NCBI RefSeq assembly: GCF_023806485.1
Contig: NZ_JAMSLR010000001.1
Coordinates: 434,001-498,000, forward strand
Origin: Thermalbibacter longus
GTDB lineage: Bacteria; Chloroflexota; Chloroflexia; Thermomicrobiales; Thermomicrobiaceae
Reading direction: 5' to 3'
Length of the DNA: 64,000 nucleotides
The stretch's first letter is position 1, and every line of letters begins with the position of its first letter. The translations under genes and the position numbers were made by a program. This document shows, piece after piece, positions 32,134 through 33,939 of the stretch. The notes below the pieces were generated by a model that saw only the letters and a list, made by a program, of their open reading frames with translations, ran no database searches and was not told where the DNA came from.

Positions 32134-32163
32134 TTGTCTCTCTACGGCAACGTGCAGTAGACT
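32134..32163 (+). promoter_or_regulatory. Possible promoter of the mgtE leader
   Basis: TTGTCT (32134-32139) and TAGACT (32158-32163), spacer 18. It would give a leader of about 410 bases before mgtE. Confidence 0.4.
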
Positions 32164-32169
32164 GGCGGG

Positions 32170-32400
32170 GCGAATGCGGATCCGTGTTCGTGGCCCCGTC
32201 TTGCAGGATGTAGGGCCTGAGCCCGATCCGCGTCGCGGTTCGAGGGATAACAGCGTGGAAGCAGGTAGCTCACCAGCTCAATCACTTGTCCCCGCTGGCT
32301 GACCGGCTGCAGTGTGGGCTTCGGCATCGGCTCCTCGCCCCCGGTCAGTCCGGGGGCGTGTCGTGTGAAGGGCTCTGGAGACGGAGGTTGCCGATGCCGA
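32170..32400 (+). ncRNA. Structured leader of mgtE, class unknown
   Basis: A perfect 11-bp long-range stem pairs 32321-32331 (TCGGCATCGGC) with 32390-32400 (GCCGATGCCGA). Inside it a perfect 9-bp hairpin CGCCCCCGG/CCGGGGGCG (32336-32358) has a TCAGT loop, followed by GAAGGGCTCTGGAGACGGAGG. The 3' strand of the long stem contains the start codon of a small ORF. The conserved M-box (ykoK) Mg2+ riboswitch core was looked for and not found. A switch that opens or closes the small ORF is an inference. Confidence 0.5.
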
Positions 32401-32597
32401 TCGCTGGTCGTGTCCGGCACCTGCTCGACGTGCCCGAACAGCGTTTTCCGTACCACCCCCTAACGACGAGAGAGGGTAGACCCCTCTCCAGATCATCGCG
32501 CCTCCGCCACTTGACCCAAGCACGCCTCTGGACCGGGACTCGCGCGCTGGCTCCACTCGAGGTCACCTCCGGGAGGAGGAATGCCGATGGCAACTGA
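32394..32597 (+). CDS. Candidate leader ORF overlapping mgtE
   Basis: 67 codons starting ATG six bases after GGAGG (32383-32387), beginning MPIAGRVRHLLDVPEQRF and ending 17 bases inside mgtE in another frame. No family resemblance; it is rich in Arg and has five Pro. Its ATG is buried in the 11-bp stem described above. It may act as a regulatory upstream ORF rather than encode a working protein, and it could be chance. Confidence 0.35.
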   Translation: MPIAGRVRHLLDVPEQRFPYHPLTTREGRPLSRSSRLRHLTQARLWTGTRALAPLEVTSGRRNADGN

Positions 32598-33939
32598 GAT
32601 GGATCTCCGTGCCCTGCTGGCCGATGCCATCGAGCGTCGTGACCGTGAGGCGGCCGAGGAGACGCTCTGGCAGCTCTCTGAGCAGGACGAGCTCGGGCGA
32701 GCGCTGCAAGAACTCGACCCCCCGCGATTGACCCGGCTGGCGCAACTGCTCGGCGACGAGCATTTCGGTGAGTTCCTCGCTGAGCTGGAGCCGTCGGAGG
32801 CCGCCGACGTGCTGGAGCGGTTGAGCTGGGGCGAGGCGGCCGACGTGCTGGAGGCGATGGCGCCGGACGATGCTGCGGACGTCTTCGCCGAGCTGGAGCC
32901 CGAAGAGGCTGGACGTATCCTGGTGGCGATGGAGCCGCTGGAGGCTCAGGAGTTGCAGGAGCTCCTGAGCTATCCGCCGGACACGGCGGGCGGGCGGATG
33001 ACGCCGGCCTACGTGGCGCTCTCACCCAGCGTGCGCGTCGACCAGGCGATCGTCGCGTTGCGGCAGCTCGCCCAGGCGGCCGAGACGATCTACTACGTCT
33101 ACGTGACTGACGAGGAGGGGCACCTGCTCGGCGTCGTTTCGATGCGCGACCTCGTCCTCAGCCCGCCTGATCGAACCGTCGGAGACGTGATGGAGACCGA
33201 CCTAGTCAGGGTAGCGGCTAAAGCTGACCAGGAGGAGGCCGCGCGCATCCTCATCGAAGAGGGGTTGCTCGCGATCCCAGTCGTGGACGAGGACAACCGA
33301 CTGCTCGGGATCATCACCGTCGACGATGTGGCCGACATTCTCGAGCGCGAGGCGACGGAAGACATCGAACGGCTGGGCGGTTCACAGCCGCTCGAAGTGC
33401 CGTACATGCGGGCCAGCCCGCTCTTGCTCTGGCGCAAGCGGGTCGGCTGGCTGCTCCTCCTGTTCGTCGGATCCGCCTACACGGTCAGCGTGACGAACTA
33501 CTACGAGGACCTGATCGCCCAGGTCACTGCCTTGGCGCTCTTTATCCCGCTGCTGATCGGGACAGGGGGCAACGCCGGCTCCCAAGTAGTGACAACGCTC
33601 GTCCGGGCGATCGCGCTCGAGGGGATCGGCCTGCGCGACATCCCGCGCATTCTCCCGAAAGAGATCGTGACGGCCCTGATGCTCGGCCTGGTGATGGCGA
33701 TCGTCGCGTTCGGCCGGGCCGAGATCGAAGGCCTGGGTCGCGACCTCAGCCTCGCGGTCGCCTGCGCGATCTTCGCGATCGTGCTCTGGGCGGTGACGGT
33801 CGCTGCCGTGCTGCCGCCGGTTCTGAAGCGGCTGCGCATCGATCCGGCCGTGGTCTCGGCACCGCTTATCGCCACGCTCGTCGACGGGACCGGGTTGATC
33901 ATCTACTTCAACATCGCCCGGCTGATCCTCGGGCTGTGA
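32581..33939 (+). CDS. mgtE: Magnesium transporter MgtE
   Basis: 452 residues. Cytoplasmic N domain (residues 1-135) of acidic helical repeats, DVLERLSWGEAADVLEAMAPDDAADVF. Two CBS domains follow (MTPAYVALSPSVRVDQAI and VMETDLVRVAAKADQEEAARIL...LLGIITVDDVADIL), then five membrane spans with the signature PLLIGTGGNAGSQ. The N and CBS domains gate the channel by Mg2+ binding. GGGAGGAGGA immediately precedes the ATG. It has a long folded leader. Confidence 0.95.
   Translation: MPMATEMDLRALLADAIERRDREAAEETLWQLSEQDELGRALQELDPPRLTRLAQLLGDEHFGEFLAELEPSEAADVLERLSWGEAADVLEAMAPDDAADVFAELEPEEAGRILVAMEPLEAQELQELLSYPPDTAGGRMTPAYVALSPSVRVDQAIVALRQLAQAAETIYYVYVTDEEGHLLGVVSMRDLVLSPPDRTVGDVMETDLVRVAAKADQEEAARILIEEGLLAIPVVDEDNRLLGIITVDDVADILEREATEDIERLGGSQPLEVPYMRASPLLLWRKRVGWLLLLFVGSAYTVSVTNYYEDLIAQVTALALFIPLLIGTGGNAGSQVVTTLVRAIALEGIGLRDIPRILPKEIVTALMLGLVMAIVAFGRAEIEGLGRDLSLAVACAIFAIVLWAVTVAAVLPPVLKRLRIDPAVVSAPLIATLVDGTGLIIYFNIARLILGL

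Follow-up and report, generated by a model that had tools for sequence, protein, structure and literature searches.

A probable leader-peptide attenuator upstream of mgtE and other Mg2+-transport genes in Thermomicrobiales

Introduction

The M-box riboswitch controls Mg2+ transporters, mgtE included, in other bacteria. The closest worked example to the leader described here is Salmonella mgtQ, an 8-aa ORF within an operon, where Asp2 and Glu5 make ribosomes abort and thereby free the sequestered ribosome-binding site (RBS) of mgtB; this RBS lies in a stem-loop (3:4), and an alternative 2:3 pairing forms when the upstream ORF (uORF) is aborted (PMC8092293). In the enterobacterial mgtL-mgtA and corL-corA systems efficient uORF translation represses, the output is at the level of transcription, and the mgtL peptide carries acidic N-terminal residues (PMC11282234, PMC11552253). 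A further element, the mgtE motif SRC-65-1, is a riboswitch candidate rather than a uORF, and has been reported exclusively in Thioalkalivibrio (PMC11109978).

The leader analyzed here precedes mgtE in a 64,000-nt stretch of the genome of Thermalbibacter longus (hereafter the window, from which all coordinates are taken), and consists of a short peptide ORF (ORF1), a GC hairpin and a sequestered RBS. As in Salmonella mgtQ-mgtB, a short uORF with an acidic codon 2 (here partly imposed by our search patterns) stands before a Mg2+ transporter gene, and a switch between an RBS-sequestering stem-loop 3:4 and a 2:3 pairing on uORF abort is proposed (PMC8092293). Unlike mgtQ-mgtB, the GC hairpin lies inside the RBS helix, the targets are mgtE, corA and a small gene that we call orf62, and the phylum is Chloroflexota; furthermore, MgtB is unrelated to MgtE, and the mgtQ peptide does not look like those of ORF1 (PMC8092293). 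With mgtL-mgtA and corL-corA the system shares a leader peptide ahead of Mg2+ transporters, but those leaders act by Rho-dependent termination and have EPDP-type peptides, whereas the Thermomicrobiales leader has MDAGS-type peptides and a sequestered RBS in every clade, with predicted intrinsic terminators in g2 and g4 (PMC11282234, PMC11552253). On inspection MDAGS-type peptides showed no resemblance to EPDP or mgtQ peptides, although such peptides are too short for a homology test. SRC-65-1 is likewise a structured RNA before mgtE, and its model takes in the Shine-Dalgarno (SD) sequence; it differs from our leader in its published description and host range (PMC11109978). Searches of the open-licence literature did not turn up any published leader peptide from Thermomicrobia. 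By analogy, the leader most likely works like mgtL, mgtQ and corL while looking unrelated to them in sequence; it is a new leader family of a known kind.

Results

The mgtE leader contains a stable RBS-sequestering helix

A preliminary description of the locus had proposed that an 11-bp stem pairs perfectly around a 9-bp hairpin, that an ATG in its 3' strand opens a 67-codon ORF (ORF2) with a good ribosome site, that ORF2 ends inside mgtE, and that the M-box core is absent. All of these points were confirmed (Table 1). TCGGCATCGGC (32321-32331) pairs with GCCGATGCCGA (32390-32400), surrounding the GC hairpin and masking the RBS and ATG of ORF2. When the 426-nt leader was dinucleotide-shuffled 200 times, only 1% of the shuffles contained a perfect stem of 11 bp within a 90-nt span. 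The 92-nt element spanning 32315-32406 has a folding energy of -54.2 kcal/mol (z = -3.6), and none of 200 shuffles was equally stable; the wider stretch 32290-32620 was unremarkable in the shuffle comparison (z = +0.36). The stem exceeds chance, and covariation accompanies its conservation in related leaders across genus and family as well as in a second family of the same order. The putative promoter was read directly at this locus and in its relatives L040 and L039; a consensus promoter scan returned none.

Table 1. Features of the mgtE leader and adjacent genes (window coordinates).
Feature	Coordinates	Strand	Remarks
Putative sigma-70-type promoter	32134..32163	+	TTGTCT-18-TAGACT; common to three g1 species
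SD sequence of ORF1	32242..32247	+	GAGGGA
ORF1, leader peptide MEAGSSPAQSLVPAG	32255..32302	+	15 codons; GTG start, TGA stop
GGCTGACCGG, candidate antiterminator/anti-sequestor strand	32297..32306	+	At ORF1 stop codon; complementary to hairpin 5' arm and loop
5' strand of RBS-sequestering helix	32321..32334	+	TCGGCATCGGC plus CTCC; covariation, fold z -3.6
GC hairpin	32336..32358	+	GCCCCCGG-TCAGT-CCGGGGGC; 9 bp, loop TCAGT, and an additional C-G pair that closes the stem
CCGGTCAGTCC, pairs with 32297-32306 in the alternative fold	32341..32351	+	
SD sequence and start codon of ORF2, with 3' strand of the sequestering helix	32383..32400	+	
ORF2	32394..32597	+	67 codons; GGAGG 32383-32387; stops 11 nt inside mgtE
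mgtE, Mg2+ transporter	32587..33939	+	Pfam MgtE, MgtE_N, CBS

The M-box model (RF00380) matched neither the window nor the whole T. longus genome. Among the 4227 models of Rfam 15, none scored above its gathering score in the window or in 15 related loci, and permissive scans gave chance-level matches only. Genus g4 and families f11 and f13 do carry RF00380, which was not found in g1, g2, g3, g6 or f3; most genera of the lineage appear to lack an M-box. Four g4 genomes (G006, G010, G013 and G017) carry both an M-box and the leader-orf62 element.

ORF1 is the conserved coding part of the leader

The preliminary description had overlooked ORF1, and it is this ORF that makes up the conserved coding part of the leader. 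Its family comprises 37 distinct peptide sequences of 15-32 codons, typically beginning M(D/E)AGS; examples are MDSGGVPERSTCSTG in the genus of the window, MDAGSSSSNSGSTNG in g4, MEPGSTHKGVTVLSG in g2 and MDAGSPGYSTIESPRD in f3. At codons 3-5 the difference rates at codon positions 1, 2 and 3 were 0.41, 0.32 and 0.61, and among the 22 leaders of the xxGS type they were 0.06, 0.00 and 0.47. The aligned position of the ORF1 start holds TTG, GTG or ATG, and the stop codon is TGA, TAG or TAA. By this third-position variation and the use of three start and three stop codons, ORF1 behaves as a coding sequence. Asp or Glu occupies codon 2 throughout, but the search patterns required GAN after the start codon and thus partly imposed it, the only pattern-free case being G050 (MEPGSS...); the orf62-based scan placed no such demand on Ala3, Gly4 and Ser5. 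Most of the peptides have no second acidic residue among their early codons. The length of ORF1 and its spacing to the hairpin differ between clades.

There is no amino acid that is repeated along the entire peptide, and none is commonly enriched across the ORF1 family. A trp-type amino-acid attenuator was rejected on the lack of a common enriched amino acid and on the nature of the targets, which are transporters and orf62. In family f3 (L014 and other f3 loci) the sequence CGTGAAGGGAG before the ORF1 start is conserved at the nucleotide level; this exceeds what an SD sequence would require, hinting at an extra RNA-level constraint.

The leader is confined to Thermomicrobiales and precedes three types of target

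The leader was found in ∼37 genomes, restricted to Thermomicrobiales. When 84,980 species, each represented by one genome, were scanned with a pattern, there were 17 matches, all labelled Thermomicrobiales or related Chloroflexi, and within the class the matches fell in the order Thermomicrobiales only. The leader lies directly before mgtE in three g1 and three g6 species, and seven f3 genomes have the order leader-orf62-mgtE (G022, G029, G031, G033, G038, G039 and G053). Except for the corA case described next, the remaining leaders precede orf62 alone, and a leader before orf62 occurs in f3 and in all f1 genera with orf62 (g1, g2, g3, g4 and g6). At L096 in G058 (G058:C763, ∼8.5 kb) the leader is followed by a short anonymous ORF and then by corA (Pfam CorA, E 1e-31), without orf62, which represents a third target type. 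In family f1 no leader was found before corA, and mgtE of g2, g3 and g4 has no such leader. ORF1, a short SD-bearing ORF, thus precedes mgtE, orf62-mgtE and corA in an mgtL/mgtQ/corL-type layout, and two unrelated Mg2+ transporter families have one leader in common. Two further leaders (MDADSPRFSSMDFLRN and MDAGSRRFSSVELLPS) lie at contig ends (G056:C275, L165; G049:C221, L100).

A DNA search revealed a second copy of the hairpin in the T. longus genome itself (G000:C23; 96% identity over 28 bases). This type of copy, before a 62-63-aa orf62, is present in 4/4 genomes of the genus; the mgtE-leader copy was found in three of them, the fourth assembly being incomplete (81%). Alignment of the mgtE and orf62 leaders brought out elements in common: a block GGCTGACCGG, the hairpin CCCCCGGTCAGTCCGGGGG and, immediately 5' of this hairpin, a strand complementary to the RBS. 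A covariance model trained solely on f1 leaders gave exactly two strong matches in this genome. It also picked up a new f3 leader, in G050 (MEPGSSRNPDRRLP), ahead of an orf62 gene that had escaped the protein search. The G050 leader is an independent success of the model.

Compensatory changes maintain the RBS helix, and an alternative pairing is predicted

We tabulated 38 related leaders, and 21 representatives (one per clade or locus type) were used in permutation tests. The hairpin was located by pattern or, in ∼7 leaders whose entries are less certain, as the best GC stem. In 38/38 leaders the strands of the RBS helix pair better with each other than with those of other clades. The mean duplex energy was -21.4, against -15.0 (sd 0.66) after permutation, and none of 20,000 permutations was as low (n = 21). 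Re-paired helices include TCGGCATCGGC/GCCGATGCCGA in the mgtE leader studied, GCGTATCAC/GTGGTGCGC in L050, CACCTCC/GGAGGTG in the g1 orf62 leader, and CCGCCC/GGGCGG in f3. The duplex between the end of ORF1 and the hairpin gave -22.1 against a permuted -19.5, again with 0/20,000 permutations as low (n = 21), and CCGG directly follows the ORF1 stop codon in 21 of the 38 leaders. Two mutually exclusive structures that link ORF1 to the RBS are thus predicted, the RBS helix and the ORF1-end/hairpin pairing. A T-rich run after the hairpin gives the shape of an intrinsic terminator in g2 and g4, but not in g1, g6 and most of f3. In equilibrium folding the RBS was largely paired in most leaders with either ribosome position, even with an early stall.

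ORF2 is probably a coupling cistron

ORF2 has 67, 116 or 117 codons in the genus of the window, the longer forms being those of two relatives, and always ends 11 nt inside mgtE. The g6 loci differ: in L012 ORF2 stops on the mgtE ATGA, in L006 it continues in frame into mgtE, and in L007 the two overlap. Its position is the one where f3 genomes carry orf62. Its dN is close to dS, which reveals no protein-level selection, and a protein search returned no recognisable homologue, not even within the genus. In simulations at this GC content the frame survived such divergence without a stop with P = 0.22-0.28, and conservation of the frame is by itself weak evidence. ORF2 as a functional peptide was rejected on these three grounds. 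Because the ORF2 peptide is unconserved, ORF2 is probably a coupling cistron only, whose translation matters and whose product does not.

The mgtE start at 32587 is common to the genus. The open frame extends up to an ATG at 32581, but this codon is not ATG in the same-genus relative L040; we therefore place the start at 32587, and hence the ORF2/mgtE overlap is 11 nt. The gene has its own SD sequence, GGAGGAGGAA (32572-32581), and encodes a normal MgtE_N-CBS-MgtE protein. The same genome carries a second, distant mgtE (G000:C45:22952-23469, L043; ∼42% identity) without the leader.

The orf62 family

The orf62 products are 59-73 aa long, with the motif RYxIxxxDxxPVVRxVPV and a basic tail (for example L033:2075-2260, G000:C23:365474-365659; homologues L044-L090 and L164). 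They were found only in Thermomicrobiales, and have no Pfam or NCBIfam name. Within the genus, comparisons with the species of the window gave dN/dS of ∼0.2 to 0.3, by which measure orf62 is a real protein there. An AlphaFold2 model had a mean pLDDT of 67, with only an N-terminal beta hairpin confident. Across the family and the order, nearly every copy has a short SD-bearing ORF ∼150 nt upstream; in the case of L087 (G059), no upstream leader matched the search pattern. Most copies are not adjacent to a Mg2+ gene. On its genomic contexts, orf62 is a candidate new small protein of Mg2+ homeostasis.

Discussion

In our view the element is probably an attenuator of Mg2+-transport genes that works through a leader peptide (uORF) and is peculiar to Thermomicrobiales. 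We infer the polarity of the switch and also that Mg2+ is the signal, the latter because two unrelated Mg2+ transporters share the leader. The proposed layout comprises ORF1 (1), its end (2), the hairpin with the anti-RBS strand (3) and the RBS (4), with 3:4 as the off and 2:3 as the on state. With sufficient Mg2+, ribosomes would complete ORF1, and the ribosome at the stop codon would cover the ORF1-end strand, leaving the hairpin and the sequestering helix free to form and thereby shutting off downstream expression. The output would be intrinsic termination where a T-run is present, and elsewhere blocked translation, probably with Rho. At low Mg2+, ribosomes would abort or stall in the first ORF1 codons; the end of ORF1 could then pair with the hairpin (CTGACCGG/CCGGTCAG) and trap the anti-RBS strand in a loop, allowing the next ORF to be translated. 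At the mgtE locus studied this ORF is ORF2, whose translation would be coupled to that of mgtE and would protect the RNA against Rho. Since equilibrium folding favours the sequestered state in most leaders, the on state would have to be kinetic, arising during transcription. Against the attenuator reading, MDAGS matches known ribosome-destabilising sequence less well than EPDP or repeated acidic residues, most orf62 copies lie away from Mg2+ genes, and mgtE of g2, g3 and g4 is leaderless.

Alternatively, a leader-peptide attenuator might respond not to Mg2+ but to another signal, be it an amino acid or charged tRNA, antibiotic exposure or general translation stress, mgtE being only one member of a wider stress regulon. 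Most leaders do precede orf62, which has no assigned function, rather than a Mg2+ gene; Ser, Thr, Pro and Gly abound in several ORF1 peptides, and conservation falls on the first five residues, as happens when ribosomes stall early in elongation. However, the peptides lack an amino acid that recurs throughout, and both the seven genomes with orf62 immediately ahead of mgtE and the leader before corA point to Mg2+; we regard a non-Mg2+ signal as unlikely. The stem and ORF2 could also be chance, or remnants of a duplicated orf62 leader, without effect on mgtE, as the ordinary openness of the ORF2 frame, its neutral substitution pattern and the good RBS that mgtE itself has ∼190 nt downstream would allow. 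We judge this quite improbable: the leader is kept before mgtE in six species of two genera with its stem re-paired by compensatory changes, and promoter, ORF1 and hairpin are all retained in g1.

A true riboswitch, in which the RNA itself binds Mg2+ or another ligand and ORF1 is incidental, would account for the strong conserved RNA structure and for the nucleotide-level conservation before the start codon in f3. Nevertheless, the conserved part 5' of the hairpin retains a start, a stop and an open frame, with variation at third codon positions, no conserved aptamer-like junction was seen, no Rfam family matched, and ORF1 length and ORF1-hairpin spacing vary between clades; a riboswitch is, in our view, most improbable. 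The preliminary description had suggested a Mg2+-responsive or translation-coupled switch of an unrecognised class. Of this proposal, a translation-coupled switch is upheld by the covariation of the stem and the lack of a riboswitch match, but the role of key element passes from the 67-codon ORF to the 15-codon ORF1; a directly Mg2+-binding aptamer is unsupported, and a switch sensed by the ribosome fits better.

More specifically, the leader-peptide attenuator may be a separately evolved ribosome-based Mg2+ sensor, in which M-D/E-A-G-S aborts early elongation at low Mg2+ and thereby controls MgtE, CorA and orf62; we hold this tentatively, at slightly short of an even chance. If true, Mg2+ sensing through the stability of the translating ribosome would have evolved in Chloroflexota as well, serving the unrelated MgtE channel through a peptide and an RNA output that differ from the enterobacterial mgtA, mgtB and corA cases. 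A single leader would then have termination or RBS sequestration as its output in sister genera, and one could test which sequences at the start of a nascent chain make ribosomes, those of thermophiles included, unstable when Mg2+ is low. Likewise, orf62 would be a likely new player in Mg2+ homeostasis.
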